Positions 1,737-60,186 of a DNA stretch of 64,000 bases are shown here, in pieces. The notes beneath the pieces were generated by a model. That model was not told where the DNA came from. It saw only the letters and a program-made list of their open reading frames with translations, and did not search any database. A program made the translations under genes and the position numbers. The stretch comes from Paratinospora sagittata (Eukaryota; Streptophyta; Magnoliopsida; Ranunculales; Menispermaceae): positions 24,558,519 to 24,622,518 of the forward strand of contig CM069608.1 in NCBI GenBank assembly GCA_035771175.1, written 5' to 3'. Numbering within the stretch: the stretch's first letter is position 1; the number at the start of each line of letters is the position of its first letter.

Positions 1737-2112
1737 AACACTTACCAATCTATTCAGGCTACCGAAAATTCTCTGAGCCAAAATACTTTTTGAAAGTTAG
1801 TCGAATTTTCATTTGAATCAAAACGCTTAAGTCATTTTGGTTTCAAAGCGTTTTCTTTGAAACTCTACTTATTCAAAAATTTTTAATACTGAGCAAAAAC
1901 TTCAATCTTTATCTGAAAATCTATTTGAAAGCTTGAACTGTTTTCACTCAAATTTTCAGCATTGTTTTAACTTATATCATTCTTGCTGAAAGAGAAATTT
2001 GAGAGATAGTTCATAGGATACTGTTGTATTTAATTTCATATTCTGTATACTGTATCAAGGTTGTAACAGTAGTTAGATGAACTACTGAGTCGATATTCAA
2101 CAAGGTTAGGTC

Positions 2113-2329
2113 TTCTCACACTCGTAAGTTGAGAAACGGTCTTCTCACAACCGTAAGCTGAGAAACGGTAATTCTCACACCCGCAAGTTGAGAAAGCTTA
2201 GGTTTGTCTCATACACGTAAGTTGGGATAGGTTGGTCTCACGCCTGTAAGCTGAGCAGTGTAACGGTTGTTCTCACACCCGCAAGTTAAGAAAAGGTGTA
2301 ACGGTTTGATTCTCACCCGTAAGAGAATC
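2113..2329 (+). other. Stem-loop array with constant loop, LARD1 5' LTR
   Basis: Seven successive hairpins. Stems: TTCTCA/TGAGAA at 2113/2130, 2142/2159 and 2172/2189; TCTCA/TGGGA at 2207/2223 (one G-U pair); CTCA/TGAG at 2237/2252; TTCTCA/TAAGAA at 2270/2287 (one mismatch); GATTCTC/GAGAATC at 2308/2323. The first six loops are 11 nt and nearly the same (CACTCGTAAGT, CAACCGTAAGC, CACCCGCAAGT, TACACGTAAGT, CGCCTGTAAGC); the last is ACCCGTAA. Units are 29-35 bases long and several are followed by ACGGT. The array lies in the transcribed leader. Confidence 0.75.
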
Positions 2330-3706: not shown

Positions 3707-3708
3707 GG

Positions 3709-10767: not shown

Positions 10768-10781
10768 AAAAAGGGGGATAT
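10768..10781 (+). other. LARD1 polypurine tract
   Basis: AAAAAGGGGGATAT directly before the 3' LTR, as expected for the plus-strand primer. Confidence 0.85.
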
Positions 10782-11690: not shown

Positions 11691-12354
11691 GGAACAGAAG
11701 AACAAAAATAATATTTTTGCTGTTCTGACACGTACATCTTTCTAGCCACCTTTTCAAAACAACTTTTCGCAAAAATCAACTTTCTGTATTAGTAAGAGAT
11801 ATTATCTGATTTATGAACCACATCTCTTAAACTTTCCTTATTCGTGAATCTAGAGAAAATCCAAATGTTCATGAAATGTGCAGTTGCCATTTTCGTGATA
11901 CATTCTAGCTGTTGTGAGTAAAGGTTCATATTTGAAACTCAAATTCAAATGAACAACAACTTCATCTCTTCTAGTCTATATATACCAGCACTTAACAATC
12001 TGTTAAGGCTACCGAAAATTCTCTCCGCCAAAACACTTTTTGAATGTTAGTCGAATTTTCATTTGAATAAAAAAGCTTAAGTCATTCTGGTTTCAAAGCG
12101 TTTTCTTTGAAACTCTACTTATTCAAAAGATTTTCATACTGAGCAAAAATTTCAATCTTTATCTGAAAATCTATTTGAAGGCTTGAACTGTTTTCACTCA
12201 AATTTTGAGCACTGTAATAACTTATATCATTCTTGCTGAAAGAGAAATTTGAGAGATAGTTCATAGGATACAGTTGTATTTATCTTCATATTTTGCATAT
12301 TGTATCAAGGTTGTAACAGTAGTTAGATGAACTACTGATATTCAACATGGTTAG

Positions 12355-12605
12355 GTCTTCTCACACTCGTAATTTGATAAACAGTCTTCTCACACTCGTA
12401 AGTTGAGAAACAGTCTTCTCACACCCGTAAGCTGAGAAACGGTAGTTCTCACACTCGTAAGTTGAGAAAGCTTAGGTTAGTCTCATAGCCGTAAGTTGGG
12501 ATAGGTTGGTCTCACGCCTGTAAGCTGAGCAATGTAACTGTTGTTCTCACACCTGCAAGTTAAGAAAAGGTATAACGGTTTGATTCTCACCCTGCAAGAG
12601 AATCC
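12355..12605 (+). other. Stem-loop array with constant loop, LARD1 3' LTR
   Basis: Eight units with stems TTCTCA/TGAGAA (first one decayed), TCTCA/TGGGA, CTCA/TGAG, TTCTCA/TAAGAA and GATTCTC/GAGAATC. Loops again carry CGTAAG or CGCAAG/TGCAAG. Confidence 0.75.
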
Positions 12606-12789: not shown

Positions 12790-13028
12790 GTTTAGTCGTT
12801 TTTCTCTTTGAAATAGATCAAAATCTTTGATTTGTTTATCTGAACTGAATGAGGCTTTCAAATTTACTGCTCTTGATTTCATATTCATCTGAAAATTTAA
12901 TTCCATTGCTGAACAATTTCTGTGTGAGCTTCAATGTGCTCTGTAAGTTGTGCTTTTCATATTGATTTTTGGTAAGAGAATCAAATCTATAAACCTATAA
13001 CTTCTGTTCTAAAGTGAAGGTGAGTCAC
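12790..13028 (+). repeat. Tandem-array monomer 0, right part
   Basis: Continues the monomer interrupted at 532: GTTTAGTCGTTTTTCTC through to GGTGAGTCAC, then the Athila 5' LTR starts at once. In intact monomers the next base is also the start of TGATAAG. Confidence 0.85.
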
Positions 13029-21273: not shown

Positions 21274-21500
21274 TGTTGGCCCAAATATGTCCAAAAGGAA
21301 GGGGGGTGAATTGGACACTTAGTAGATTTTAACCTTTCTTTAAATTGTGCGGAATAATGAAAGCAGATTAAAGAACGTATGGCAATGAGATACAGTAAAT
21401 GTAAATGGGACAAAGCAAGCAGGATTTATAGTGGTTCGGCCGCTCCTACATCCACTACCTAACCTCCTCAGTTAGGATTTGTTCAAACTCCACTATGGAC

Positions 21501-21660
21501 CTTCTAACGGGTGAAGATCAAACCAGAACACTTTCTCTACTTACAGGTGAGAGAGAACCTATTCTTAACTTACTTGTGTGAGAAGACCGCTTATAACTTT
21601 GAGCAACACTTGTTCTGACTCAGTGACTTACCCGTCACTACAATATGATTACAAAATGAG
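21501..21660 (-). other. Stem-loop array, solo LTR
   Basis: Stems on the plus strand: CTTC/GAAG at 21501/21513 with loop TAACGGGT; TTCTCT/AGAGAA at 21533/21552 with loop containing TTACAGG; TTCTTA/TGAGAA at 21562/21579 with an 11-nt loop containing CTTAC. Reverse-complemented, the loops read ACCCGTTA, CCTGTAAG and AAGTAAG, so they belong to the same class as LARD1. Confidence 0.65.
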
Positions 21661-26284: not shown

Positions 26285-26768
26285 TGATAAGTTGAGTTTT
26301 AGTAGTTAGTTTGCGTGTTAATTTGTTAGATTTTTAGGTTCATTTAGTTAGTTTTTAGGTGTTTTTGCATGATTAGTATACTTAGTTGTTTTAGACATAT
26401 TTAGGTTTTATCTTAGGTTTTAATCGATTTTTATCATGAATAAATGACTTTTTGATACATGTGAATATCATAGAAGTCATGTGTTTTGAGTACATTTCAT
26501 TATAGTTAATACTTTGATTAATTGTATAGAATTTACAATTGTTTATAATTTGTTCGGAAACTCCATCTTACTCCTTGAAGTTTTTGAAATGAATTTTTGC
26601 GAATTTCAAAGTGTTTGAATCTTGAGGAAAATGAATTTGATTGATCGATTCAAATGGTTTCAATTGAATTTCAAATTATAAATGATTTCTATTCATTTGC
26701 ATTGATCCGAAGTGCACAAAGATTGATTTAATTCATCGGATTTCAAAATGGAAAAATGGTTGAAAATA

Positions 26769-28272
26769 TGTCACACCCCACCCGGATGAGTCTAAACCGG
26801 CGGAACACTCATTGGTGGGGCGCGAATGCATTATAACAATAACTAAGTACGTAGGTACATAATTGAGTACAAATTTGATTTCATTAATTTAAGAATGTAT
26901 TTTTGTATAAAATATGATTGAGGGAACATCCTCCCAAAATCTCCCTATAATTAATAAGGGTTACAAAATGTGGGCCGAAAAACCTCCACCCAGTCCACCC
27001 TAAACTCCCATGAAAAATTGGATAACAACGGGGCGAGCTATTGCCCAATGGGTAAAATAGTTCGTGAATATGACAATTAATAAAGGAAACTTCATAATCA
27101 AATATCACATATACACAACATAGCATCATAATTAGGACATGTATGTATATATGACACCGTCTCGTAATGGTTCCATGATTGTACGTCGCCCTAAGTTCAC
27201 ATACAGATGTCCATCCCCAGGTAAACCCGGGTTCTCATTGTACGTCTCTCCCCAAGGTCATCGACCTAGATGCACGTACAGATGTCCATCCCCAAGTAAT
27301 CCCAGGTTCTCATTGTACGTCCCTCTCCAGGGAAATATCAAGAATAGTGAGCATTGCTTCTAACTATTTTGTGGATCATGAACCACTTACGTCCTAGGTG
27401 GTGGTTATGTATGATGCCAATGCATGAGCAGGATCGGTCTTTACTAACATGAGACAGGATTTGGCAGCATTTGGTGATTCTTATCAGGTCAATATCACCA
27501 CATGTAAAGTTAGGATGTTTAGTATCACTTGTACAAGCTGATAGCTTTCAAATAAGACTAACCAGATCAATCTCTAGTTGAGAGGTGGGACACGAGGTCC
27601 ACTTAAATACTAATCATCTAGAGCAGCACGCTGCCTCCCGTTCACTATTTAAAGTTATTGAGGACAAGACTAAGTCTGGTTGAGTCAGTTTGACCACTAA
27701 TCCGGCATAGTAACAGTGTAATACATGAACTCCAAATATACATGCATAAGTATGATAGGTACGAACATTATACGCAATAATGCAGTGTAAATGAATAGTA
27801 GACATAATGATAAATGAATGTAAACTTTAATAAAATTCATAAGACACGCAAACCTATGTTTCGTTCCCCACCTTCAGATAATCACCTTCTGCAACTGGCG
27901 CTTTCTCCATAGTAGAACCGTGTAGCACCGCGAAGAGAGTCTCAAAAAGAGAAGAGAGAAATCACAAAGAGAGCAAGAGAGAGAAAGAGAGAAGAGAGGA
28001 TTGGTGTGAGAAATGAGAGGGAGGGCATCCTTGTATAAGAAAAGGAACGCCCGAAACTTCAAATGTTTTCTTTTTTTTGTCTAAACAGGGGGTATTATAC
28101 TCTACCCACTTAAAATGATTTCGCTCTCGAAATTCAGTCCATGTACTAATGATTGCTATCTGTGTGGGATTAACCGTCGTCGTCATCATTGACAAGATCA
28201 GGGTAATGCCGGTAAGGTCCCTGAATAACACTGTGGCCGGTGGAATCCTCAACATCATCAAACAATGGTGAC
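26769..28272 (-). mobile_element. Chromovirus LTR and 3' interior fragment
   Basis: LTR 26769-28099: begins TGTCACACCCCACCCGG and ends GGGTATTATA, the reverse complement of the LTR at 32274. Then 28100-28272 matches the 3' interior and polypurine region (reverse complement of about 41580-41744). The rest is absent and there is no target duplication, so it was reduced by recombination. The open frames at 27139-27397 come from a tandem repeat inside the LTR. Confidence 0.85.
27190..27345 (-). repeat. Tandem pair inside the chromovirus LTR
   Basis: Two copies of CAGATGTCCATCCCCA...TTCTCATTGTACGTC. The same pair occurs at 33075-33215 and 42535-42680 and in reduced form at 45056-45170. Confidence 0.75.
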
Positions 28273-28525
28273 CAAAACTATTTGAATTTTAGTCGTTTTT
28301 CTCTTTGAAAAAGATTAAAATCTTTCATTCGTTTATCTGAATTGAAAGAGGCTTTCGGATTTACCGCTCTTGATTTCATTTTCATCTGAAAATTTAATTC
28401 CATTGCTGAATAATTTCTAAGTGAGGTTCAATACGCTCTGTAAGTTGTGCTTTTCATATTGATTTTTTGTAAGAGAATCAAATCTATAAACCTAGAACTT
28501 CTGTTGTAAAGTGACGGTGAGTCAC

Positions 28526-29861
28526 TAATAAGTTTAGTTTTAGTAGTTAGTTTGTATGTTAATTTGGTAGATTTTTAGGTTCATTTAGTTAGTTTTTAGG
28601 TATTTTTCCAGGATTAGTACACTTAGTTGTTTTAGAAGTATTTAAGTTTTATCTTAGGTTTTAATCTATTTTGTTCATTAATAAATGACTTTTTGATACA
28701 TGTGAATATCATAAATGTCATATGTTTTGATTACATTTCATTATAATTAATACTTTGATTAATTGCATAGAATTTACAATTATTTATAATTTGTTCAGAA
28801 ACTCCATCTTACTCCTTGAACTTTTTTAAATGAATTTTCAGGAATTTCAAAGTGTTTGAATCTTTGATGAAAATGAATTTTATTGATCGATTCAAATGGT
28901 TTCGAATAAATTTGAAATTATAAATGATTTATATTTATTTGTTTTCATCCAAAGGGCACAAAGATTGATTTAATTCATCGAATTTCAAAATGGAAAAACA
29001 GTTGAAATTATGTCAAGTGTCGAGCAGGATGCTCAAGCAGTGACCAGTTCACTTAAATCAGGCCTACACTATAGGACGCTCCTATCGTTGTAGGATGCTC
29101 GAGATTTCTGAAAAATCTTGGAGCACAGCCCAGAAGGACGCCACTATCTCTACAGGACGCTCTCGATTTCTAGGAAGTCTTGGAGCACATTTAGTTGGAC
29201 TCTCATGCTCAGTAGCGTCCTCTTGAAAATCCCCGATGACAATTGATCTCTCGGGATGACCATCGATCAGGACATTATTGTTGCAACAAGACGCTCACAT
29301 CAAATCGAACCTTCTGGGTTTCAACATTTCAGGATGCTCCTAGAGCAATAGGACGCCTGTGCTAACTGTAAAAAAAAGTTGTCTCTTCTGTGAAAATTGT
29401 CATCTTTCTGAGACTTTTTTATTTTCGTGTAAATGTTGTTTTGGAAGAATTTCTTAACGTCTGTGTTAACTCCAGCTTGGTGAAATAAATTGTCCATTGC
29501 ATTTGAAATCCAAATGAACCGATTAAGATTTTTTGGAGATTGAAATCCTGAAACTCGCTCTTATATATTAGCAACTTAAAGTCGTTGAAACATATACGAT
29601 TTGTTTGCTCAAAACTATTTGAAGTTTACTCATTTTTCTCTTTGTGAAAGATCAAAATATTTCATTCGTTTATCTGAACTGAGAGAGGCTTACGGATTTA
29701 CTGCTCCTTATTTTATATTCATCTGAAAATTTAATTCCATTATGAACAATTTCTAAGTGAAGTTCAATACGCTTTGTAAGTTGGGCTTTTCATATTGATT
29801 TTTGGTAAGAGAATCAAATCTATAAACCTAGAACTTCTGTTATGAAGTGACGGTGAGTTGA
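28526..29861 (+). repeat. Array monomer 4
   Basis: Complete, 1,336 bp; start mutated to TAATAAG. Confidence 0.88.
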
Positions 29862-31195
29862 TGATAAGTTGATTTTTAGTAGTTAGTTTGCATGTTAATT
29901 TGTTAGATTTTTATTTTCATTTAGTTAGTTTTTAGGTGTTTTTGGATGATTAGTATACTTAGTTGTTTTAGACGCATTTAGGTTTCATCATAGGTTTTAA
30001 TTTGTTTTTATCATGAATAAATGACTTTTTGATACATGTGAATATCATAGAAGTCATATGTTTTTATTACATTTCATTATAATTAATACTTTGATTAATT
30101 GCATAGAATTTACAATTGTTTATAATTTGTTCAGAAACTTCATCTTACTCCTTGACGTTTTTGAAATGAATTTTCACGAATTTCAAAGTGTTTGAATCTT
30201 GATGAAAATGAATTTGATGGATCGATTCAAATTGTTTCAAATGAATTTCAAATCATAAATGATTTCTATTCATTTGTTTTGATCCGAAAGGCACAAAGAT
30301 TGATTTAATTCATCAAATTTCAAAATGGAAAAACAGTTCAAATTATGTCAAGTGTCGAGCTGGACGCTCAAGCAGTGACCAGTTCACCTAAATTAGGCCT
30401 ACACTATAAGACGCTCCTATCCCAATAGGTCACTCAAGATTTATGGAAAATCTTGGAGCACAGTCTAAAAGGATGCTCCTATCTACACAGGACGCTCAAG
30501 AGTTCAAGGAAGTCTTGGAGCACTTTCAGTTGGATGCTCATGCTCAGTAGCACCCTCTTGAAAATCCCTGAGCACAATTCATCTCTCGGGATGACCATCG
30601 TTTAGGACATTATTGTTGCAACAAGACGCTCACATCAAATCGAACCTTCTGGGTTTCAAAATTTTAGGACGCTCCTAGAGCAATAGGACATTTTGCTAAC
30701 AGTCGAAAAAAAGTTCTCTACAGTGCAAACTATCATAGTTCTGAGGCTTTGTTATTTTCGTATAAATGTTGATTTACCAGAATTTCTTAACGTCTTTGTT
30801 AACTCCAGTTTGGTGAAAGAACTTATCCGTTGCATTTGAATTCCAAACAACGCGATTAACGTTTTTAGGAGATTGAAATCCTGAAACTCACTCTTATATA
30901 TTTGTAACTTAAAGTCATAGAAACATATATGATTTGTGTGCCCAAAACTATTTAAATTTTAGTCATTTTTCTAGTTGAAAAAGATTAAAATCTTTCATTC
31001 GTTTATCTGAATTGAAAGAGGCTTTCGGATTTACCGCTCTTGATTTCATTTTCATCTGAAAATTTAATTCCATTGTTGAACAATTTCTATGTGAGGTTCA
31101 ATACACTCTGTAAGTTGTGCTTTTAATATTTATTTTTGGTAACAGAATCAAATCTATAAACCTAGAACTTCTGTTGTAAAGTTACGGTGAGTCGC
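29862..31195 (+). repeat. Array monomer 5
   Basis: Complete, 1,334 bp; more like monomer 6 than like monomers 1 and 2 (both have GAGCTGGACGCTC). Confidence 0.88.
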
Positions 31196-32273
31196 TGATA
31201 AGTTGAGTTTTACTAGTTAGTTTGCATGTTAATTTGGTAGATTTTTAGGTTCATTTAGTTAGTTTTTAGGTGTTTTTGCATGATTAGTATACTTAGTTGT
31301 TTTAGACGCATTTAGGTTTCATCATAGGTTTTAATTTATTTTTGTCATGAATAAATGACTTTTTGGTACATGTGAATATCATAGAAGTCATATGTTTTTA
31401 TTACATTTCATTATAATTAATACTTTGATTAATTGCATAGAATTTACAATTGTTTATAATTTGTTCAGAAACTTCATCTTACTCCTTGACGTTTTTGAAA
31501 TGAATTTTCACGAATTTCAAAGTGTTTGAATCTTGATGAAAATGAATTTGATTGATTGATTCAAATTGTTTCAATTGAATTTCAAATTATAAATGATTTC
31601 TATTCATTTGTTTTGATCTGAAAGGCACAAAGATTGATTTAATTCATCAAATTTCAAAATGGAAAAACAGTTCAAATTTTGTCAAGTGTCGAGCTGGACG
31701 CTCAAGCAGTGACCAGTTCACTTAAATTAGGCCTACACTATAGGACGCTTCTATCGCGATAGGACGCTCAAGATTTCTGGAAAATCTTGGAGCACAGTCT
31801 AAAAGGACGCTCCTATCTCCACAGGACGCTCAAGATTTCTTGGAAGTCGTGGAGCACTTTCAGTTGGACGCTCATGCTCAGTAGCGCCCTCTTGAAAATC
31901 CCCGATCACAATTCATCTCTCGGGATGACCATCGTTTAGGACGTTATTGTTGCAACAAGACGCTCACACCAAATCGAACCTTCTGGGCTTCAAAATTTCA
32001 ACATGCTCCTAGAGCAATAGGACATTTTTCTAGCTGTCGAAAAAAAGTTGTCTCTACTGTGCAAACTATCATCGTTTTGAGCCTTTGTTATTTTTCGTAT
32101 AAATGTTGTTTTACCAGAATTTCTTAACGTCTTTGTTAACTCCAATTTCGTGAAAGAACTTATCAGCTCCATTTGAATTCCAAACAAAGCGGTTAACGTT
32201 TTTAGGAGATTGAAATCCTGAAACTCACTCTTATATAGTTGTAACTTAAAATCGTAGAAACATATATGATTTG

Positions 32274-33650
32274 TGTAATACCCAAGGTTTGCACCAAGAA
32301 AAAAAATTTGGTTTGGGCGGACCTACCCGAACGTTCAGACGCATTTTCCCTATTGAAAGAACCCCTCCCCCTCCTCATTTTTCACACCAAAATCACTCAT
32401 CCATGTGATTTTCATTCTCTTTTTCACTCATTTTGAGTTTTTGTCTTCTCTTTTGATACTCTCTTTCCGAGACTCTAGGTGCGGTGCAACGCGGTTCTGC
32501 CCGGGGGAAGGCGCCCGTTTTCAAAGGAGTTTTATCTGAAGGTGGGGAACGAAACATAGTTTTGAGTGTCTTATAACTATTATTAAAGTTTACATTCATT
32601 TATCATTATGTCTACTATTTATTTACACTACATTATTGCGTATAATGTTCATATTGTCATACTTATGCCTGTGTATTTGGAGTTCATGTATTACACTGTT
32701 GTTATGTCGAATTAGTGGTCAATCTGGCTCAACCAGACTCAGTCTTGTCCTCAGTAACTTTAAATAGTGAACCGATGGCAGGGTTATGCTCTAGACGATT
32801 GGTATTTAAGTAGACCTCGTGTCTCACCTCTCAATTGGAAACTGATCTGAATGGTCTTATTTGAAAGCTATCAGCTTATACAAGTAATACTGAATGTCCT
32901 AACCTTGCACGTAGTGATACCGACCCTGATAAGCATCACCAGACGTTGTCAAATCCTGTTTAAATATTAACTAAAACCGAACCAGTTCATGCATTGGCAT
33001 CATACATAGAACCACCTAGGGACGTATGTGGTTTATGATTCATATAATAGTTAGAAGCAATGCTCGCTAATCATTATATTTCTTTGGAGAGGGACGTACA
33101 ATAAGAACCTGGCTAGTCCTGGGGAGGGACATCTGTACGTGAATCCAAAGCGTCTTTCCTCAGGAGGGACGTACAATGAGAACCCGGCTACTCCTGGGGA
33201 GGGACAATTGTTCGTGAACTCAGGCGATGTACAGTCATCAAACCAATACGAGATGGTGTCATGCATACATGCATATTGAATCGATTATGATGCTCAGATG
33301 TGTTTTTAAGATATTTGATTATGAAGTTTGCTTTATTAACTGTGATATTCACGAACTATTTTTCCCACTGAGCGTGTAGCTTGCCCCGTTGTTATCCAAT
33401 TTTTCACAGGAGATTAGCGTGGACTGGGTGCAGCTTTTGGGCCCACATTTTATACCCTTTGTATTATTCATTGGGAATTTTTGGGAGAATGTTCCCTTAA
33501 CTATTTCATGTACAAATATATTCTGAAATTACTGAAATCAGACTTGTACTTAACTATGCTTCTGCGCACTCTGTTATTATCGTTATAATGCATTCGGTCC
33601 CCGTCCGTGAGTGTCCCGTCGGTTTAGGCGCGTCCAGGCGGGGTGTGACA
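32274..33650 (+). repeat. Chromovirus 5' LTR (1,377 bp)
   Basis: TGTAATACCC to GGGGTGTGACA. Collinear with 41745-43061, 44222-45605 and, reversed, 26769-28099. Short frames inside it are not genes. Confidence 0.9.
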
Positions 33651-35626: not shown

Positions 35627-36420
35627 GAAAATCATGAATGATCACTGGGATTGTAAAAATTTATTTTATATATGAATGAAAATGTTTTGTTTAAGACTAT
35701 ATTTAGTGGGCCGACTTACAACCATTCTTTCTTTTGTATCACTAACTTTGGAGTGGTATGGGACACAACAAAATTGGAGGATACTAAATAAAATGTGGAA
35801 GTAAGAAAACCCACAACCTTGTGTGAAAAGAAACATTTGGAGAAAGTTGCATTACTAACATTATCACTAAGTTTACACGGTATGGGACGAGTAAACTTGG
35901 ACGATACTATTAGTGAACTACTATTCAACCGATGTTTTATAGAGACCGTGTTCATACAACTTAACTTGGTTGACACCCTTATTACCAAATTCATGTGGTA
36001 TGGGACACACGAATTTGGATGATAATCGAAAAGACTAAGCGATAGAGTTTGAATACATAAGATTGCGATACAACGTTAGATCAGGATATTTACAGAGGCA
36101 AATCTTAGAATTTTTATGACTCGTATGGATTTTCAATGAAATATATATGTATGTTCACAAAAACCAGAACCAAAGCATTTGAAATACTTGCAAAGTTTTA
36201 TACTTATTATATAAACATTCTAACCTTGTTTCACACCATGGCCAAACATACGAGGCACATAAGATTCTTTGATTCCTCAACAAAAACCATACACTATACT
36301 TAGAAAGATAGGTGATTTTTATATTACAGTACTCTCGAATTTGTTGCTGAGAATATCATAACATTATACTTTGCTACAGTTCCTAAATCATGGTTTTATT
36401 TTCTCCTTACCAGTGAGAAA
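35627..36420 (+). other. Spacer between extra ORF and gag
   Basis: No gene. Three segments with GGTATGGGAC (35754, 35879, 35997) form an imperfect repeat. The last part, 35938-36348, is also kept in the sister element (47464-47864). Ends in TTTTATTTTCTCCTTACCAG before the gag ATG. Confidence 0.6.
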
Positions 36421-37683
36421 ATGCAAACCAGGAAGAGAGGAAGGCCACGTACTGTCCGTCCAGCAGAGGAGGCACCTCCTGAGATACTGAACCAGGAACC
36501 GCCACCTCCGACGATAGCACAGGCCACACCCGACACTGCCACTACGTCTGGGCAGGCAGTGCCACCCCAACCCACACCCTATGCCATGCCTTCGAGTATG
36601 GAAGTTTTTTTCGCCGGATTTATCGAGGCAATAAGTAACTTTTCATACGGCCATTCGTGAGACCGCGGCCAATCAGGTTGTCACTGTTTAGGTACCTGCG
36701 AGATCTGGGTCGGAGACTCAAACCGATCAGATTACAAAGTACAAGAGGCTACAACCTCTTACTTTTGCTAGCACCATTGATGCTGAAGAGGTGCAGAAAT
36801 GGCTGGATGAGTCAAAGAAGGATCTCGATGCAATGGGAGTCGATGAGACTCGAAAGACTCTACTTGCGACCTACCAACTTATTGGTGGAGCAAATACATG
36901 GTAGAGAACAGTAAAGGAGGACCCAAGGGTCAACACTATGGACACGACTGGGAAATAGTTCGAGTCACTGTTTATTGATGAGTACTTCCCCGACGCTATG
37001 AAGAGGCAGAAGCGCAAGGCAGCATGACAGTCAGGGAGTACGCTGGCAAGTTTAAAGAATTATCGGTCTACTCTCTTTCCACAATCTTAACAGAGCAAGA
37101 TAAGACCGAGAAATTCTACAATGGCCTTCGTCCTGTCATTTGACAAGCCTTGTCGATCTTGGATCTCAAGATTTACAGGAAGGTCGTTGACAAGGCCATG
37201 AGCTTTGAGCAGGAGAAGATTGTGCAGGAGCAGAGACTGAATAGGGGAGAACGGCCTGCAACGTTTTTCAAACAGGGCTCGCAACAGGGCAACAAGAAGA
37301 AGCCCTACTATAATCAAAACCCAGCCCTCCCAGCCCCTGTTAAGAAGAATGAGGCCACGACACCTGCGGGTGAACCATCTAACCCTGGCCATCACGGCTT
37401 TCGCAATCATGGCCGCGGAGGCCGTAACGGCAAGGGTGGTCGTCGAAAGGGCAATAGCAGAGGTAGTGGTCAACACCACAATCAGCATGGCCAACAGAAC
37501 CATTAGCAGCAGAGGCTGACGTGTTACAACTGCGGCCAGCAGGGTCATATAAGAAATGTCTGTTCGCACCTTCAGCAACTTGTTCCTATCGTTCCAGTCC
37601 AACATAAACCACCTGGTGCTAATGCCCAACTTAGGCCGAACCAGCAGAATCAGGGGCAACGGAATCAGGGCAGAGCATTTGCT
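36421..37683 (+). pseudogene. gag: Chromovirus Gag with CCHC zinc knuckle
   Basis: ATG 36421 (MQTRKRGRPRTVRP), Pro/Thr-rich to the stop at 36658-36660. A frame change follows at once; the capsid region then reads on (KYKRLQPLTF, EEVQKWLDESKKD, LLATYQLIGGANTW) with several stops (about 36901, 36955, 37025 and TGA 37141-37143). From 37150 the frame is that of pol: FEQEKIVQEQRLNRGER, a Gly/Asn/Arg-rich segment, TAG 37504-37506, then the zinc knuckle [14 protein letters not shown] (37522-37563), C-x2-C-x4-H-x4-C. Gag would package element RNA; this copy is broken in the capsid region. Confidence 0.82.
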
Positions 37684-43249: not shown

Positions 43250-43454
43250 TTGTTCATTCGTTGATCTGAATTGAAAGAGGCTTTCGGATTTACCGCTCTT
43301 GATTTCATATTCATCTGAAAATTTAATTTCATTGTTGAACAATTTCTAAGTGAGGTTCAATACACTCTATAAGTTGTGCCTTTCATATTGATTTTTGGTA
43401 AGAGAATCAAATCTATAAACCTGGAACTTCTGTTGTAAAGTGACGGCGAGTCGC

Positions 43455-44221
43455 TGATAAGTTGAGTTTTAGTAGTTAGTTTGCATGTTAATTTGCTAGA
43501 TTTTTAGGTTCATTTAGTTAGTTTTTAGGTGTTTTCGCATGATTAGTATACTTAGTTGTTTTAGACACATTTTGGTTTTATCATAGGTTTTAATCTGTTT
43601 TTATCATGAATAAATGACTTTTTGATACATGTGAATATCATAGAAGTCATATGTTTTTATTACATTTCATTATAATTAATACTTTGATTAATTGCATAGA
43701 ATTTACAATTGTTTATAATTTGTTCAGAAACTCCATCTTACTCCTTGACATTTTTGAAATGAATTTTCACGAATTTCAAAGTGTTTGAATCTTGATGAAA
43801 ATGAATTTGATTGATCGATTCAAATTGTTTCAAATGAATTTAGAATTATAAGTCATTTCTATTCATTTGTTTTGATCCGAAAGGCACAAAGATTGATTTA
43901 ATTCATCAAATTTCAAAATGGAAAAAATAGTTGAAATAATGTCAAGTGTCGAGCTGGACACTCAAGTAGTGAACAATTCACTTAAATTAGGCCTACACTA
44001 TTGGACGCTCCTATCGCGATAGGACACTCAAGATTTCTGAAAAAACTTGGAGCACAGTCTAAAAGGACGCTCCTATCTCCACAGGACGCTCAAGATTTCT
44101 AGGAAGTCTTGGAGCACTTTCGGTTGGACGCTCCTACTCAGTAGCGCCCTCTTGAAAATCCCCGATCACAAATTATCTCTCGCGATGACCATCGTTTAGG
44201 ACGTTATTGTTGCAACAAGAG
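43455..44221 (+). repeat. Array monomer 7, cut off
   Basis: Runs from TGATAAG to GCAACAAGAG, where the second chromovirus LTR begins. The remainder of the monomer is not found downstream, so the far flank has been lost. Confidence 0.82.
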
Positions 44222-49441: not shown

Positions 49442-51533
49442 TGTGGCGACCCCGCACCCCAGACCACCAACCCCACAGGGAATGGCGTGCGGAATGCCGG
49501 GGCGGGACGCCCGGCGTAGGCATCTCCGACCACTCCTCAACTCCCGTGAGGTGGTTGAGACCCTACAAGCCTTATCTCAAAGAACGACATAATATCAAAA
49601 GGTACTAAACAAAACTACCAACCGTATTAATCATCCAAGACAAGAGATGATCCATAAAAATGAACCATAAATAAAATCATAATCCCTACAGTCCATTAAA
49701 ATTGACATACACATAAAGTCCAAAATTGTGGGTACAAATAAAAACCGTCATATGCCCACATGGTTTATCTAACAAGTCCCAACTCACCCATACTACAATG
49801 TGGTAAGTGTTATAATTACATAATCCAAAATATAATACTTCATAATTTAAAACACAATTCAATCAAAATGCCTCTCAACTCACATCGAGGCCTTGGATTC
49901 TCTCGCAGGCAAGGCCCTCAAGATATGACTACTCCTTTGCCCTTATTCGGGACAGAAGGACCTGCAAGAGGAAAATGAGGGTGAGCCAACGGTGCCCAGT
50001 GAATAGAATTCAAATATGCTATCAATACTCATCAATAAACATCATGTATGCATGTCAATGTGTAGCATGATTAAAAGCTCATAACATATAGATATCAAGC
50101 ATTTATAATAAGTTCGATGCAAGTAAAAGCTTATCAATTTGGATCCACATTCTACATGCATTAGGGTTACTAGTGCACATCCATTTCACCGTACCGTTGA
50201 CCCCAATCATGTTTATTTGGGGTTACTAGTGCACGTCTATTTCACCGTACCGTTGACCCCAATCATGTTTATTTGGGGTTACTAGTGCACGTCTATTTCA
50301 CCGTACCGTTGACCCCAATCATTTCCTTTTTAAAACCCTTCTATAACAAGGTTAAGTCCCCCTATTAGCCAGATAGATGGGCCCAACCAAAGTCATAAGG
50401 TTTTGTCAAATCAATGCATCATTTAAAACATTATTAGAACACATTCATGCTTTCAACATACAATATATATAAGTGATATGATGACATAAAAGATATAATC
50501 ATAAATGAAGTCTACTCACAACCAAGCCTCGCGAGAGTATTTAACCACACACGACCACCAAACCGAATCAACCCAATCAAGATCCTGAAATATTCATCAA
50601 TATCCTACCATACATCAATTTCTATGCTCAATCACATAGACATTACACATCAACCCTAAATCAGCCCACATATAGACAATAGGCCTAAATCCCATCTAAT
50701 CCCATCATTCAACTCAAATCACATGACTTAGGCCTCTAATGCATAGTTCTCATTCATAAACCATTCTATTAATCAAAAATACTGATTTTCAATTCCTTAT
50801 GCATAAACATGCCCAAATTGGGTCACTTGATCACAAGTAGGCCTAACCCATGATATGGTCACAACCACCAAATCAGTAGCATAATCAACCCTAATCATGC
50901 TTAATTAAACATAAGTTGCATCAATTCAATGATTCTAGGCCAAAAACATCAAAAACCCTAAAATATGAAATTTTCCATACTTAGGCCATATTGCCGATTT
51001 ACACTAGGTCACCATGTTCAGCCATGTATATCACTGATTTTGCATCATGGGTTCATCAACAATGACAACTAGGTCAACATAGTTGATATGCAAGCTATTT
51101 GGAAAGGTCTAAGTTCATATTCTAAACTTAAGTCTAATACAAGCAACCCTACCAATTCTTCATTTAATATTTATGTTCAGATGTATCAATCTACCAACAA
51201 AAATATGGAATCATAAAATCAACCGTACAGATTGAATTATGTGAAGAAACAAACCTTCTGTCCAAATATCAGCCCAATCCAACGGTGGACCGAAAAGTTA
51301 AGTATCTTTGATGAACAAGTCTCTAATCAGACAATTTCTACTTTCCTGCTGCAAATACTCGAACTCAGATGACTATATCGCACAACATACTTAACCCATA
51401 AACATCTCTACCGTTCAGAAGGCAGAAATATCAGTTGTAAACTACATACCCAAATTTGATATCCATCCAACGGTAGATTGAGGAGAGCTAGAAGTTTGAG
51501 CGAAACGGCGCTAGAAATCCAGACTTTCCAATC
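49442..51533 (-). repeat. Family Y 5' LTR, truncated
   Basis: Collinear with 7270-9510 (TGTGGCGACCCCG start). The last ~800 bases of the full LTR are missing; sequence changes to LARD2 at AATCATTAAGTG with a short shared ATCA at the join. Confidence 0.85.
50161..50328 (-). repeat. 56-bp repeat, three copies
   Basis: Units start 50161, 50217 and 50273, each with TTACTAGTGCAC and TTCACCGTACCGTTGACC. The sister LTR has two. Confidence 0.85.
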
Positions 51534-53781
51534 ATTAAGTGAACTTCATTCACTTGTCCTGGTTGTTTCAGTCCAAAAACACACCTGCATTACAACACTA
51601 AGATGTTGGTTGGTTCTAACGTAGTATAACACTTTACAATTAGGCTCAGTACATAGCATTACAAAGATATGAAATATGAATACGTAATGCTAAGTTGAAA
51701 TACACCTTTAGTCCTTTACCTTTTAATGTTCGGTATTCCTCAAGTGCAGTTTCGAAAAGCATGAATGATATGATATGAAGATCAATGCTTCTTCGAAAAT
51801 AAAATATACCAAATAAACATTGACGTATAAAACAAAGGACTGGTCTAAATCAAAGACACGAACAATTTTCAAAATAAATATAAAGTATAAGTATGACAAC
51901 TTCTGGTTCAGTGATCAGTAGTTAACGCAACTACTGATATAGTTCAATACAATACTTAAGATATGAAATCAAGTACAACTGTATATCTTGAACTATTTCT
52001 CAAATTCTATCTCCAGCAAGAATGATACCAAATATGAATCAGTGCCGAGAATTTGAGTTGATAACAGATCAAATAGATTTTCAAAGATAGAATGAAAATA
52101 AGCTCAGTATGAAAATCATTTGAATATGTAAGGTATCAGTGAAAAATACTTTGAAAGTTTAAATAATGAAAATCATTTTGACACAGACTAACTTTCAAAA
52201 AGTATTGGCACAATACAAACAGATTGGCATGTTGTTTGATCCTAAGTGCTAGTATTTATAGACTTAGTGGGACATAGCCGTTAGACATTTGAAGTTTAAA
52301 TAATATGAACGTTTACACACAACGGCTAGAATGTCATATGAAAATGGAAACTGCAATTTTCACTAACATTCTGGTTCTTTTCAGAATTCATGAAAAAAGA
52401 AAGTTTTAGAAAAACTTATTCCATGTATCAGAGACGATCTCTGATAGGTTTGAACAGGACTCTGCGCAAAGGTCTATTCTAAAAAAGTAAACTTATATAG
52501 TGTACTTGTTCGAAAAATGGCAGTTGTTCAATTAGAGTCCTGATTCTGTAATCTATGTCCTAACGCATAATATCAACTTTGTCGTTTTGTTCCTTGAGGG
52601 AGCTAATTACATATAAGCGTCCTGCTGAATAATTAAGTGAGGGCGCTACAAGTTTGCCATTGTCTTGACTTTCTTTGATATTTGAATGACTTAACCTTGA
52701 GGGCACTAATGCACATTTAGCATCCTTCTATGTTTTAAAACAGTTAAGTACATGAGAGTGCTACTATCCGAGTAAGCGTCCTGCCAGTTTAAAACATAAA
52801 ACGAAACATGTGGGCGCTACAACTATATAAGCGTCCTACCAGTTAAAAACATTTTCTACAAAGACACAAGCACGCTAAAGGACAATCAGCGTCCTGAAAG
52901 TTACTAAGTTGATTCCTAAAGGTAAGGGCATTCCTATTCAGATAGCGTCTTGATAGATTGTTCAACTTATAACTATCAGCGTCCTCAAAGATACATTCTT
53001 TGAAGAACTTAAGACATCATTCTATGAGCTGATGCTGAGTCAGCTTCCTAACAACTTCAAAATATGACTAATAAAGGAGGTCGCTACTATACAAGTAAGC
53101 ATCCTGATAAATCAGTTCAATTCAACCTTAAACGTTATCAGCGTCCTGACTTATCAAGTTCAGGAGAGCGCTAGTATTTCATTAGTGTCCTGAAAGACTC
53201 TTTAAAAATAATTTTGACTCGTGATTAAATATTCGATAAATGCGAATAAAAACTGGGTATATTTCAAGTTAAATATATAAAATGAAATCATTTGAAATAC
53301 CGTAAAACATATGATCAAAACATGCAGATGATTTATGCATGATTTTGAAGAACATTTTTGAGGAATAACAATTAGAGAAAGATATACCTTAAATACTTTG
53401 TGTATTTCTCATTTCTCATGACCATTAAATCCAACTCTTCATTGTGAGATCTTCAATAAGAGCTTTGTGTTGAGTTGAATAACTTGAACGTTGATCGAGA
53501 AATGTAGACTTGAAGCTTGATTGAGTCGTTCGAGTGAAGTGATCTTGAAATCATGATGTGATCGTTGAAGTCCTTTTGATTGAAACGAACTTGGCCGTTG
53601 AATGTGATCTTTGAGTTCCTTGATCGAGTCATTCCTTGGCTTTTTGCTTTCCTTAGGTGCTTTGATGAAATCTTGATACACGCACGTTTAGCACCGAAAA
53701 GTACTTTGTTTGTGATCATAAAAATATACTTTATCACAATATATTTAGGGACGAGCTAAGTGATTAACTGCATAGGTTAAC
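51534..53781 (-). repeat. LARD2 3' LTR, truncated
   Basis: Collinear with 57095-59369. TATA box at 52252-52261, U3 stem-pair array at 52595-53192. The stem-loop (U5) end is missing. A 94-codon minus frame (53453-53737) is repeated in the other LTR only because LTRs are duplicates. Confidence 0.85.
52595..53192 (-). promoter_or_regulatory. U3 stem-pair array, LARD2 3' LTR
   Basis: Plus-strand halves such as GAGGGCGCT, GAGAGTGCT or GTGGGCGCT followed by AGCGTCCTG or AGCATCC. About eight pairs, matching one for one those at 58163-58772. Lies upstream (in sense) of the TATA box at 52252. Confidence 0.6.
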
Positions 53782-53795
53782 ATTTCCCCCTTTTT
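53782..53795 (-). other. LARD2 polypurine tract
   Basis: TTTCCCCCTTTTTG on the plus strand, AAAAAGGGGGAAA in sense, directly before the 3' LTR. Confidence 0.8.
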
Positions 53796-55369: not shown

Positions 55370-56122
55370 TCAAATATAACATAAAGCATCAAAATATGAA
55401 TGAGAGATGGAAAGACAGCTAAGCATATGCAAGCAAGCATCACAGTAGTGAGATGTGCAGAACTCATTGTGTGAGTAAAGCAAGGGAATTAAACAAAGTA
55501 TACACATAAAAGATAAATTGCAAGATGAATTATGCTTAAACATTGAAAATAAGTATTGTAAGAGAGTTTTAACCAAAAATGCAAAAGATTTTTTAAACAA
55601 GATTTGACGAATTTGGCATAGATGACTAGGGCTGGCAAAGAGGTTTCTAGATTTTCCAAGAAGATTCTTCTCGAGGCAAGGACAAGGACATCCACGAAGG
55701 TTATTGGTTCTGCGAGCCGTGAGAGCGGCGATACTCACATGGACAACCTTTTCAATTAACGCTCGGGATTCTTCATTTTCCTTAAATAGTGCCATCACCA
55801 GATCTCTCTGATGTTTTGCCTTGGCTTTAAGCTCTTTTAGGCGGTTCTCATGCTTGTTTAGCATGACTAGAACAACTTGAACGGTGGAGGATAGAGAATC
55901 ACTAAGCTTGGCAAACTATTCCTCAAGAGACGCTGCAGCAGGAAACGGTGGCAGAGGTTCTTCTGCATGAAGTGAAGACGCATGGTTTTTCCTGGGAGCA
56001 ATTTTCCAAGAGGATTCTTCATCAGATCCATCTGATAAAGAAGACGATAAAGAAAATTCGCTAGAGGTGGAATATGATTCCATTCTACCCTTTTTCCTAG
56101 ACTCAGGAGCTTTGGACGCCAT
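55370..56122 (-). pseudogene. LARD2 internal ORF (Ser/Glu-rich, helical), one stop
   Basis: Minus-strand ATG 56122-56120 (MASKAPESRKKGRMESYS), a Ser-rich acidic stretch, TAG at 55918-55916, then the same frame continues with a Lys/Glu-rich helical part (MLNKHENRLKELKAKAKHQR, then KENEESRALIEKVVHVSIAAL), probably a coiled coil, followed by a Cys-rich CPCPC segment. After about 55600 the sequence is hydrophobic and less convincing. No Gag, zinc-knuckle or enzyme motif. A small non-enzymatic protein is typical of non-autonomous copia derivatives; I do not recognise the family. The earlier in-frame ATGs upstream of 56122 code for an unlikely hydrophobic lead and were not used. Confidence 0.5.
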
Positions 56123-56451
56123 TAGAGAGATGAAGATGGAGACGGAACGAAGAAGATGAATGCAGAACAATTTCGCGCTGGGAATTGAATTGAGAGGGAA
56201 ATGTATGAAGCATGCTAATGGGCATCGAAAACAAAGTCTACAATTAATGCAGAAATGACATAGAGTTATGCGCCAAAGAGTACGATTAAACAGGGAATAA
56301 AACATAATCATACTTGAGAGGTTACAGCTAGGTGGCATAGAGTTCTAGGATATATATCCTAGGACGTGAAATGCAAAGACACCTAAGACAAACCCTAAAT
56401 TGACCAATGGATCTAGACTCTAGGTTTTTTGACCAAACATTCGGAGAATCC

Positions 56452-56463
56452 GCTCTGATACCG
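56452..56463 (-). other. LARD2 primer binding site
   Basis: GCTCTGATACCG on the plus strand, CGGTATCAGAGC in sense, two bases from the 5' LTR end. Confidence 0.8.
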
Positions 56464-56680
56464 ATTGTTGGTCCACCCAAGAGGGGGGTGAATTGGGTGC
56501 AATGGTCAATTTTAAAAATATCTTCCAATAACTTAGTGATTTACATGAGTGTATTGGAATTGGATGCAAAATAGAACACAGACTAAATTGCAAACGTGAG
56601 ACACATAGATTTATAGTGGTTCGGTCGAGCCTACGTCTATTACGTAATCTCCTGATTATGATTTTCTCAATCCACTAACT

Positions 56681-57066
56681 GATTCTCTTACGGGTGAGAA
56701 TCAAACCTTTACAACTGCCCTTTTACAGGTTAAAGGAAAACCTATCCTTTTACAGGCTAAGGATGAACCGTATTTCTTTTTTCTTGGATGAGGAAAAACC
56801 CATGTTCGTTTTACAGGATAAGGAAGAACCGTGAACCTTTTACGGGATAAGGAACAACTATTTTTCTTTTACAGGTTGAAAGAAAACCTATCCTTTTACA
56901 GGTTAAGAGATAACGAATTAGGATGAACCGTTTTCCTACTTGCAGGTGAGGATAAACCTTTTTCTCTTTTACAGGTTAAGAGATAACGAATCATTTTTCA
57001 GGTTAAGGACACACTTATCCTTTTACGGGATGAGGATGAACCGTTTCTCTTTTATAGGTTCAGAGA
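56681..57066 (-). other. Stem-loop array with constant loop and changing stems, LARD2
   Basis: Plus-strand stems and positions: GATTCTC/GAGAATC 56681/56696; CCTTT/AAAGG 56719/56732; ATCCTT/AAGGAT 56744/56759; CCTT/AAGG 56836/56849; TTTTCTTT/AAAGAAAA 56862/56879; TCTCTT/AAGAGA 56963/56978; ATCCT/AGGAT 57017/57033; TCTCT/AGAGA 57046/57062. All loops contain TTAC(A/G)GG or TTATAGG, which is CC(C/T)GTAA in sense. Stems differ from one another but each is complementary. Confidence 0.78.
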
Positions 57067-57820
57067 TAACCTTACATGATTTAAATCCTTAAATCATTTA
57101 GTGAACTTCATTCACTTGTCCTGGTTGTTTCAGTCCAGAAACACACCAGCATTGCAACACTAAGATGTTGGTTGGTTCTAACATAGTAGAACCAACCAAC
57201 ACTAAGATTAGGCCCAGTACATAGAATTACAAAGATATGAAATATGAATACGTAATGCTAAGTTGAAATACACCTCAGTCCTTTACCTTTCAATGTTCGA
57301 TATTGCTCAAGTGTAGTTTCGAAAAGCATGAATGATATGATATGAAGATCAGTGCTTCTTCGAAAATAAAATACACCAAATAAACATTGACGTATAAAAC
57401 GAAGGATTGGTGTAAATCAAAGACATAGACAATTTTCAAAATAGATGTAAAATATAAGTATGAAAACTTTTGGCTTAGTGATCAGTAGTTAACGCAACTA
57501 CTGATATAGTTCAATACAATACTTAAGATATGAGATCAAGTACAACTGTATATCTTGAACTATTTCTCAAATTCTATCTCCAGCAAGAATGATACCAAAT
57601 ATGAATCAGTGCTGAGATTTTGAGTTGATACCAGATCAAATAGATTTTCAAAGATAGAATGAAAATAAGCTCAGTATGAAAATCATTTGAATATGTAAGG
57701 TATCAGTGAAAAATACTTTGAAAGTTTAGATAATAAAAATTATTTTGACACAGACTAACTTTCAAAAATGTATTAGCACAATACAAACAGATTAGCAAGT
57801 TGTTTGATCCTAAGTGCTGA

Positions 57821-57829
57821 TATTTATAG
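57821..57829 (-). promoter_or_regulatory. LARD2 TATA box
   Basis: TATTTATAG on the plus strand, CTATAAATA in sense; conserved in the other LTR at 52252-52261. Confidence 0.65.
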
Positions 57830-58162
57830 ACTTAGTGGGACATAGCCGTTAGACATTTGAAGTTCAAATAATATGAACGTTTACAAACAACGACTAGAAT
57901 GTCATATGAAAATGACAACTGCAATTTTCACTAACATTCTGATTCTTTCCAGATTTCATGAAAAAGAAAAGCTTTAGAAAAACTTATTTCATGTATCAGA
58001 GAGGATATCTGATAGGTCTGAAAAGGACTCTGGGCAATGGTCTGTTCTGAAAAAGTAAACTTATGTAGTATACTTGTTCGAACAGTGACAGTTATTGAAT
58101 TAGCGTCCTGATTCCGTAATCAGTATCTTAATGCATAATATCAACTTTGTCGTTTTGTTCCT

Positions 58163-58772
58163 TGAGCGCGCTCATTACGTATAAGCGTCCTGTTGAACAA
58201 TTAAGTGAGGGCACTACAAGCTTGTAAGCGTCCTGACTTTCTTTGATATTTAAACGACTTAACCTTGAGGGGCACTAATGCACATTTAGCGTCCTGCTAT
58301 GTTTTAAAACAGTTAAGTACATGAGGACGCTACTATCCGAGTAAGCATCTTGCTAGTTTAAAACATAAAACAAAACATGAGGGTGCTACAACTATGTAAG
58401 TGTCTTATCCGCTAAAAACATTTTAAACAAAGACACTAGCACACTGAAGGACAATTAGCGTCCTGAAAGTTACTAAGTTGAATCCTCAAGGGGAGGGCGC
58501 TCCTATCCAGATATCGTCCTGACAGATTGTTCAACTTATAACTATCACTGTCCTCAAAGATACATTCTTTAAAGAACTTAAGACATCTTTCAGTGAGCTG
58601 ATGCTGAGTCAGCTTCCTAACAACTTCAAAAATTGACTAATAAAGGAGGTCGCTACTATACAAGTAAGCGTCCTTATAAATCAATTCAATTCAACCTTAA
58701 ATGTTATCAGCGTCCTGACTCATCAAATTCAGGAGAGCGCCGCTATTTCATTAGCGTCTTGAAAGACTCTTT
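58163..58772 (-). promoter_or_regulatory. U3 stem-pair array, LARD2 5' LTR
   Basis: Pairs such as GAGCGCGCT/AAGCGTCCTG at 58163, GAGGGCACT/AAGCGTCCTG, GAGGACGCT/AAGCATCTTG, GAGGGCGCT/ATCGTCCTG and GAGAGCGCC/AGCGTCTTG at the end. Confidence 0.6.
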
Positions 58773-59372
58773 AAAAATAGTTTTGACTCGCGATTAAATA
58801 TTCGATAAATGCGAATAAAAACTCGGTATATTTCAAATTAAATATATAAACTGAAATCATTTGAAATACCGTAAAATGTATGATCAAAACATGCTGATTT
58901 GAAAAACATAGCAGATGATTTATGCATGGTTTTGAAGAACATTTTTGAGCAATAACGATTAGAGAAAGATATACCTTAAGTACTTTATGTATTTCTCATT
59001 TCTCATAACCGTTAAATCCAACTCTTCATTACGAGATCTTCAATAAGAGCTTTGTGCTGAGTTGAATAACTTGAACGTTGATCGAGAGATGTAGAGTTGA
59101 AGCTTGATTGAATCGTTCGAGTGACGTGATCTTGAAATCATGATGTGATCATTGAAGTCCTTTTGATTGAAACGAACTGGACCGTTGGATGTGATCTTTG
59201 AGTTCCTTGATCGAGTCGTTCCTTGGCTTTTTGTTTTGCTTAGGTGCTTTGATGAAATCTTGATACACACATGTTTAGCACCGAAAAGTACTTTGTTTGT
59301 GATCATAAAAATATACTTTATCATAGTATATTTAGGGACGAGCTAAGTGATGAACCGTATACGTTAACATCA

Positions 59373-60186
59373 TGTTGTTTGATTAACATCGATTATTGTG
59401 CTTAATACATATATTGTTTGAATCAATTATTTTGATCATAACTTGTGCACATTGATTCACATGCTTGAATATTGATAATTTTTAATCAATAAGTTTTGAT
59501 CAATAACTTGTATGTTGATTCTTGTGCTTCACCTATCATACTTAGAATCAATATTTGGAAATACATGTATGCATACTATTCTTGAACTTGCACAAAAATA
59601 TTTTGAATCGGTTGCATGTATTTTTGAGAAACTATTTCAACATTGCACTTCATTTAGAGTCATAGTGGTTGGAATAGTGATTGTTGACTCCAGATTGTAA
59701 GTTTAAATTGTTGAGAGTGTTGTCATTCACTTCTCTATATCTTTGTAGTCTTGATGTATTGTTGACTTGGTTATGTCAACTGGGGTATTACCTTACTCTG
59801 GACGACCGTAACCATGCCCGTAAGTTGGTTGCAAGTTGTGGCTTACTAGCCAAGCCCTGGTGTAGGCTAGACTGTGTAGGTTAGCGTTGTAGTGGCTTTC
59901 TAACTAACCCCTGGTGTTGGTTAGTGTAAACGGCTTCTAATCCGCCCGTAAGTGATTAGCCAATAGTGGATTGGGAAATCCTGATCGGTGTGATTGGGTA
60001 GTGGATGTAGGTTTAAGGGGAAACGAACCACTCTAAATTCTTTATGTTCATTTATTTTCCCGCATTTGTTATTTGGATTGTTATCGACTCCGCACATTAT
60101 TTTTTTAATTAAAATATTAGAAAGGTAATGCAAAAATTTGCAAAGTCCGATTCACCCCCCTCTTGGACTATAATACTGGGCCAACA
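59373..60186 (+). repeat. Further copia-type LTR (end certain, start uncertain)
   Basis: Ends TTCACCCCCCTCTTGG...GGGCCAACA at 60186, with GTAGTGGATGTAGG and GAACCACTCTAAA upstream (60000-60037) as in other copia LTRs. A start at TGTTGTTTG 59373 is a guess. No target duplication or primer site was found beside it, so it may be a truncated LTR. Contains the stem-loop array at 59810-59959. Confidence 0.6.
59810..59959 (+). other. Stem-loop array, fourth LTR family
   Basis: AACCA/TGGTT 59810/59826 with loop TGCCCGTAAGT; CTAGCC/GGCTAG 59846/59865 with loop containing CCCTGGTGT; ACTAACC/GGTTAGT 59903/59919 with loop CCTGGTGTT; CTAATC/GATTAG 59937/59954 with loop CGCCCGTAAGT. Two loops are nearly the same as in LARD1 while the stems are wholly different. 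Confidence 0.75.

Follow-up and report, generated by a model that had tools for sequence, protein, structure and literature searches.

A hairpin array with a near-constant loop and unit-specific stems in long terminal repeats of Paratinospora sagittata

We identified an array of 13 loop-anchored hairpin units (56681..57066, minus strand) in the 5' long terminal repeat (LTR) of LARD2, a retrotransposon located in a 64,000-nucleotide stretch of the Paratinospora sagittata genome (hereafter, the window). The unit-specific complementarity of the arms is real within LARD2, and stronger evidence for it comes from comparison between the four LTR families of the window, which carry different stems around the same loop, CCYGYAA. 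Because this complementarity survives sequence change, both within LARD2 and across the four families, the array is best read as a conserved single-strand fold. We further propose, with a probability of roughly 0.4, that these CCYGYAA stem-loops with covarying stems would be transcribed as part of the RNA leader and likely represent a multi-copy Gag-binding mark for packaging.

The window is rich in nested LTR retrotransposons. LARD2 lies on the minus strand, with a 2.9 kb 5' LTR (56466..59369; ends TGTTAAC ... ACCAACA), an internal domain of ~2.7 kb between the primer site and the polypurine tract, and a 3' LTR (51530..53782) that is preceded by the polypurine tract AAAAAGGGGGAA. The 3' LTR is cut at 51530 and, owing to this truncation, lacks the hairpin array. 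Over 2.28 kb (57092-59370 versus the partial 3' LTR), the LTRs share 91% identity, and the insertion is thus old. The inner edge of the 5' LTR is marked by the LTR/primer-binding-site junction ATCGG-TATCAGAGC (56452..56465, minus), with the C-rich signal CAATTCACCCCCCTCTTGG (56477..56495, minus) close to the LTR end, and a TATA box, TATAAATA (57821..57828, minus), is present about 760-1150 nt upstream of the array. Given this location, 0.76-1.15 kb downstream of the TATA box and within the 3' portion of a Sirevirus-like LTR, the array is probably transcribed. Upstream of the TATA box, there is a separate set of dyad repeats, GAGGGCGCT...AGCGTCCTGA in the plus-strand reading (58093..58763, minus), which occupy the same position as the published Sirevirus repeated motifs and lack their CGG-CCG core; these dyads are possibly a Sirevirus-type regulatory repeat without that core. 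The LARD2 3' LTR is abutted and truncated by what is probably an LTR of another retrotransposon (49442-51534), to which the primer-site-like sequence TGGTATCAGAGCC at 49439 (minus) belongs.

As the sense strand of the element is the minus strand, the plus-strand loop TTAC(A/G)GG reads CC(C/T)GTAA in the RNA sense. In this orientation, a LARD2 unit consists of a linker (often ACGGTT or AGGTT), a pyrimidine 5' arm, 1-3 bases, the loop CCYGYAA and a purine 3' arm, with the first loop bases at 57058, 57029, 57002, 56975, 56946, 56902, 56875, 56846, 56817, 56790, 56756, 56729 and 56694. A previous sequence-only reading of this region listed eight stems and claimed at least eight hairpins; all eight stems are present (at 56694, 56729, 56756, 56846, 56875, 56975, 57029 and 57058), and 10 of the 13 units that we counted close the loop with a Watson-Crick run of 4 bp or more. 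The loop, described there as constant, is exactly CC(C/T)G(T/C)AA in 10/13 units, with one mismatch each in units 57058 (CCTATAA) and 57002 (CCTGAAA) and two in unit 56790. The assertion that the stems differ completely does not hold: the LARD2 arms are related pyrimidine and purine tracts, mostly variations on TCTCTT, CCTT and TTTCTTT, such that swapped partners still pair partly, and the terminal GATTCTC/GAGAATC is the one unrelated stem.

The comparison with shuffled units suggested by the same reading was carried out by swapping the 3' arms among the LARD2 units, which yielded fewer and weaker stems. The outcome that this reading had named as a refutation, equally many complementary stems after shuffling, was thus not observed. 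Loop-closing runs of at least 4 bp dropped from 10 units to a mean of 5.3 (p 0.005), runs of at least 5 bp from 7 to 3.0 (p 0.005), and runs of at least 6 bp from 5 to 1.4 (p 0.004); the hairpin energy was -41.4 compared to -20.7 +/- 5.3 kcal/mol with swapped arms (p 0.0004) and the pair score was 162 compared to 135 +/- 8.7 (p 0.0026). With the terminal stem dropped, the p values are 0.006 for the energy and 0.03 for the score. Pairing of each stem with its own partner, as originally claimed, thus holds for the array but not for every unit, given that 3 of the 13 (57002, 56902 and 56817) have runs of just 2-3 bp. In a column alignment of 11 of the 13 units (56790 and the terminal unit left out), the column-wise covariation within LARD2 is modest (0.391 vs 0.257 +/- 0.051, with 7 of 500 shuffles reaching as high a value), and three pairs are changed on both sides, as many as in the mean of the shuffles. 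An alternative LARD2 fold, in which the 3' arm pairs with the 5' arm of the next unit, was rejected because its overall energy is weaker (-23.0 over 12 gaps vs -41.4 over 13 units).

The same loop is found in three other LTR families of the window. E1, a single insertion flanked by the target-site duplication GTTTA, carries an array of seven units in its 5' LTR (2109..2329, plus; LTR 533-2513) and one of eight units in its 3' LTR (12354..12604, plus; LTR 10782-12789); family C has three units (21498..21588, minus) and family D four (59808..59961, plus). In E1, C and D, the CCYGYAA loop lies on the sense strand and is combined with other stems: TTCTCA/TGAGAA, GTCTCA/TGGGAT, TTCTCT/AGAGAA, AACCA/TGGTT and CTAATC/GATTAG. 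In the E1 5' LTR, the stems are mostly TTCTCA/TGAGAA, with GTCTCA/TGGGAT and the terminal GATTCTC/GAGAATC in addition. Two of the D units have CCYGYAA loops, with the stems AACCA/TGGTT and CTAATC/GATTAG, and the other two, which were read by eye and entered no test, have a CCCTGGTG-type loop and the stems CTAGCC/GGCTAG and ACTAACC/GGTTAGT. Across the window, exact CCYGYAA occurs 30 times, 21 times within the five arrays, with both LTRs of E1 included, and nine times outside. All 21 array copies are on the LTR sense strand, and 18 of them are spanned by a stem, compared to three of the nine copies outside the arrays. In E1, C and LARD2, the array is preceded at ~0.38-1.15 kb by a TATA box, and in E1 and LARD2 it is followed by a primer site.

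We aligned 14 units from the four families (6/7 from the E1 5' LTR, 3/8 from the E1 3' LTR, 2/3 from C, 1/13 from LARD2 and 2/4 from D), in which 89.3% of the cells are paired vs 68.6, and all six pairs are changed on both sides (6/6). The covariation in this alignment is 0.582 vs 0.169 +/- 0.045, with none of 500 shuffles as high and slid registers reaching at most 0.183; the register was picked by eye, which favours this result. The column-shuffle control leaves shared ancestry in, and the swap and slide controls agree with it. For a pool of 25 units, from which the E1 3' LTR copy and the pair of D units with the other loop were excluded, the energy of the units' own pairing is -98.5 compared to -41.5 +/- 7.7 under unrestricted arm swapping (p 5e-6, the lowest value attainable with 200,000 shuffles) and to -58.2 +/- 9.6 when arms are swapped within families only (p 2e-5). 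Outside LARD2, tests on single families gave little or no signal: p 0.01-0.07 for E1, 0.16-0.33 for C (three units) and 0.5 for D (two units). Between the two E1 LTRs, six paired units (2113-2293 vs 12387-12567) differ at 0/72 stem positions and 6/66 loop positions (Fisher p 0.011). The terminal unit was excluded from this count, as was the additional unit of the 3' LTR, the stem of which is broken; some of the loop differences may be due to CpG decay.

The sequence-only reading took the covarying stems as evidence of a conserved RNA fold. This interpretation is supported in part, inasmuch as complementarity survives sequence change, but this evidence alone does not specify RNA. The position downstream of the TATA box, the strand polarity and the conservation across families are the basis for proposing sense RNA as the folded form. 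If sense RNA were the selected form, G-U pairs should exceed A-C mismatches, and there is no clear excess in the array stems: in fixed registers, we counted 11 G-U vs 8 A-C (column expectation 14.6 and 14.8, respectively, both above the observed values), and under neutral scoring the counts varied with the penalty (6 vs 5, 3 vs 3 or 3 vs 0). A G-U excess obtained with a G-U-favouring score was false and disappeared under neutral scoring and fixed registers. For LARD2, the antisense strand has energies similar to or better than those of the sense strand: it folds better over the whole array (-99.0 vs -85.8), and the sums over units are alike (-46.5 vs -41.4). Taken singly, most units form hairpins of low stability (0 to -6 kcal/mol), and in context they compete with each other. 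With the span limited to 35 nt, 4 or more spanning pairs are expected for 5/13 LARD2 units; in the unrestricted partition function, unit 56694 (8.4 expected spanning pairs) is fully formed, unit 56875 (4.7) partly, and no other LARD2 unit is. The LARD2 loops are predicted to be more unpaired than positions elsewhere (0.68 vs 0.46 with the 35-nt span and 0.63 vs 0.39 unrestricted). A kissing partner of the loop, TT(A/G)C(A/G)GG, is absent from the sense strand of 55400-59400 and 533-12800.

The scarcity of wobble pairs bears on the most serious rival of the packaging mark, namely, mutational self-matching, which predicts matching stems with few wobbles. Here, template switching at short quasi-palindromes during replication or reverse transcription would copy one arm onto the other, tandem duplication would spread the resulting units, and no function would be involved. 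We consider this origin unlikely. Consistent with it, the stems are nearly all Watson-Crick (185/201 positions over 33 units, under the mildest neutral penalty), units differ by several pairs at once (for example, TCTCTT/AAGAGA vs ATCCTT/AAGGAT), and the number of units varies, with the two E1 LTR arrays differing by one 29-bp unit. It leaves unexplained, however, why the loop is kept in four families while the stems change, and why the arrays have a fixed polarity and place.

Two stem-loops, one ending the LARD2 array and one following it, were compared between families. The last LARD2 unit (56694) is a terminal hairpin, GATTCTC-ACCCGTAA-GAGAATC (56681..56702, minus), the stem of which is identical in both E1 LTRs and altered yet still paired in C and D. 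Downstream of the array, there is another stem-loop with the consensus GTAGTGG-AYGTA-GG..CC-GAA-CCACTAT, which in LARD2 reads GTAATAG-ACGTA-GG..CC-GAA-CCACTAT (56613..56643, minus) and also occurs at 2369-2401, 12644-12676 and 59998-60034 (all plus) and at 851-884 of L002, the IMG/VR contig IMGVR_UViG_3300011977_000147. Its AYGTAGG and GAACCAC segments are kept in 6/6 sequences, L002 included, whereas the outer helix has two A-C mismatches in LARD2 and zero both-side changes among the six sequences. RNAalifold returned both stem-loops from these six sequences with an unfavourable covariation term for the two together (+2.2), and their covariation is not above the slid control (0.146 vs 0.171 at +1). 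The conservation of the post-array stem-loop, as seen in this alignment, is thus of sequence. Its GUA/GAA internal loop (AYGTA/GAA), which is invariably retained, may resemble the bulged-G (sarcin-ricin-like) RNA motif. No Rfam family matched the window at gathering scores.

Large retrotransposon derivatives (LARDs) consist of LTRs, a primer site and a polypurine tract around a gene-less internal domain. LARD2 contains two LTRs (the 3' one truncated), a primer site and a polypurine tract, with no retrotransposon genes recognised, and resembles LARDs in being non-autonomous and without recognisable Gag or Pol; it differs in the array inside the LTR and in the LTR length of 2.9 kb. Among the LARD2-internal frames of at least 70 aa (n = 8; two from ATG only), none had a Pfam match past the cut-off (best E 0.079). 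E1 retains a remnant of a copia gag (2876-3208; PF14223, E 3.6e-4, below the curated cut-off). Another E1 frame (4631-5731, plus) matches PF20167, a putative plant transposon protein (E 9e-12). By eye, no frame of at least 180 aa in the window resembles an autonomous Sirevirus polyprotein.

Sireviruses are marked by a CA/ATTGG + TATCAGAGC junction and a C-rich signal ~21 bp from the LTR 3' end, according to PMC2829016. The junction is exact in E1 (CA-ATTGG-TATCAGAGC) and has one change in LARD2 (CA-ATCGG-TATCAGAGC); we saw no CA/ATTGG-type primer junction after the LTR end in C and D. The C-rich signal CAATTCACCCCCCTCTTGG or its variants, a Sirevirus character, is found in both E1 LTRs, C, LARD2 and D. 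In LARD2, the element examined for this feature, CGG-CCG-core repeats upstream of the TATA box were not found. Gag and Pol of the Sirevirus clade of copia elements were not detected in LARD2, and only the weak gag remnant was detected in E1, so that both elements would be at most non-autonomous Sirevirus derivatives.

We envisage the packaging mark as follows. From the position of the TATA box, the array is predicted to form part of the transcript's leader. For Sire LTRs, an R region of ~10 bp is reported (PMC3601003), and if this length is valid here, the array would lie in U5 and hence in the 5' leader rather than at the 3' end of the RNA. The leader array would fold as RNA and display one loop to a binder many times over. 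The stems can vary provided that pairing is kept, and the loop and, more loosely, the linker are constant, which points to a structure presenting the loop to a binder; the shared loop might thus be read by a protein. With no recognisable Gag or Pol in LARD2 and only a damaged gag in E1, both elements would need the proteins of a partner, and the Gag of a Sirevirus-like partner is the most economical candidate for the binder. Recognition of the array by this Gag would be the putative step that marks the RNA for packaging; the roughly dozen repeats suggest avidity, and a mark common to several families could lead to their packaging by the same partner. A more general proposal, which we put forward only tentatively and regard as rather doubtful, is that Sirevirus-like plant elements employ a multi-copy RNA recognition code, free in its stems, in which the CCYGYAA loop is read by the Gag of one partner and diverged gag-less families share its particles. 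The choice of plant retrotransposon RNAs for packaging and the spread of gene-less elements are poorly known, and direct evidence is lacking on points of the packaging step, as stated in PMC12786077. The loop-constant, stem-variable arrays of the four LTR families provide a concrete candidate for this recognition signal and a handle on which autonomous element drives which parasites.

The array could instead act at the DNA level, as a series of dyad-symmetric transcription-factor or enhancer sites, a role that has been suggested for the palindromic repeats in LTRs of Sireviruses; this appears improbable to us. In three families (E1, C and LARD2), the array is followed by TATAAAT, which could be a second TATA box and would then place the array upstream of the transcription start; BARE is described as using two TATA boxes (PMC3735527), and repeated palindromes upstream of the promoter typify Sirevirus LTRs (PMC2829016). 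A double-stranded site, however, needs constant arms, and the arrays show the opposite, a constant centre between variable arms. Furthermore, the published repeats are located upstream of the TATA box, where LARD2 has separate repeats, and ACTATAAAT reads ACTCTAAAT in D and ACGGGAAAA in L002.

Also of low probability, in our estimate, is a leader structure that controls translation, RNA stability or polyadenylation, through a GUAAG-like U1 site, a UGUA-like motif or ribosome-steering hairpins. The loop often contains GTAAG, which is splice-donor-like (a U1 site), or TGTAA, UGUA-like sequences being processing motifs, and the sole match below E 0.01 outside the arrays in the covariance model search described below (36397-36422) reads CTGGTAAG. 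Variation at Y (CCCGCAA, CCCGTAA), however, breaks one or both motifs, and GTAAG and TGTAA require neither the conserved leading CC nor a stem. Least probable is that the array is mainly a by-product recognised by the host, with palindromic LTR clusters attracting small RNAs and silencing, because host recognition would select against retention of the stems, and, at 4-8 bp, the stems are short substrates for Dicer-like enzymes. This possibility draws on the enrichment of maize small RNAs in structured LTR regions of Copia/Sirevirus elements, as reported in PMC10760457.

Clusters of palindromes in LTRs are already known; in the sources within reach, we found no description of a loop-constant hairpin array or of its placement downstream of the TATA box, and subscription coverage was partial, so this absence is unproven. 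The closest counterparts are the repeated motifs (RMs) of Sirevirus LTRs, which, in the available text of Bousios et al. (2010; PMC2829016), are placed before the TATA box and are mostly built around a CGG-CCG core, with copies mostly >85% alike; palindromic RMs with this core are reported for 13 elements and are not universal. Like the LARD2 array, RMs form clusters of many dyad-symmetric copies in the LTR, with element-specific sequence; unlike RMs, the LARD2 array is downstream of the TATA box, with variable arms and a constant loop, and a CCYGYAA-like sequence is absent from the 13 RM consensus sequences tabulated in that paper. A precedent comes from the packaging and dimerization signals of BARE1/BARE2 in barley: BARE2 RNA occurs in particles despite the inability of this element to make Gag, consistent with conserved packaging signals (PMC3735527). 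The BARE1/BARE2 pair thus resembles the case proposed for LARD2, a Gag-less element packaged via RNA signals; BARE2 differs in keeping a possibly translatable pol, which LARD2 does not show, and the accessible text of that paper describes no hairpin array. In maize Copia LTRs, as in LARD2, secondary structure is concentrated in the LTR, and the accessible text of PMC10760457 describes the respective regions as palindromic and cis-regulatory, with no description of a constant-loop array.

Scans of viral contigs yielded two candidate relatives (L001 and L002), and scans of genome contigs three more (L003-L005). L003 and L004 are titled as bacteria, and the context of L001 and L005 looks like phage and bacterial DNA; these four were taken as chance matches, and the phage and plasmid collections contained no match. 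L002 is the only plant-like relative found. Its positions 1-about 1070 are a plant Sirevirus-like LTR end (CGGTCCCACCGA repeats, a TATA box and a GTGGATGTAGG stem-loop) joined to phage-like frames, and the contig is a probable chimeric assembly. Its upstream repeats resemble the Barbara motif as tabulated in PMC2829016 (TCGGTCYCACCGA). Short UUCGU-centred repeats downstream of the L002 TATA box show no unit-specific pairing (6 units, loop-constrained, p 0.41), and the loop-constant array is thus shown only for the families of the window.

A covariance model built from the 14 aligned rows (R1) gave 18 matches up to E 4.3e-05, all of them array units (the 14 model rows and four near-copies in the E1 3' LTR), followed by two terminal hairpins (E 0.003 and 0.005); the remaining LARD2 units score E 1.4 or worse, and no new array was found in the window. 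The match at 36397-36422 (E 0.008) reads like a splice donor and was taken as chance. Apart from the LTR elements, the window contains several head-to-tail units of ~1.3 kb with about 89-96% identity (23614-32276 and 43253-44220), parts of which also match 1-532 and 12789-13298.
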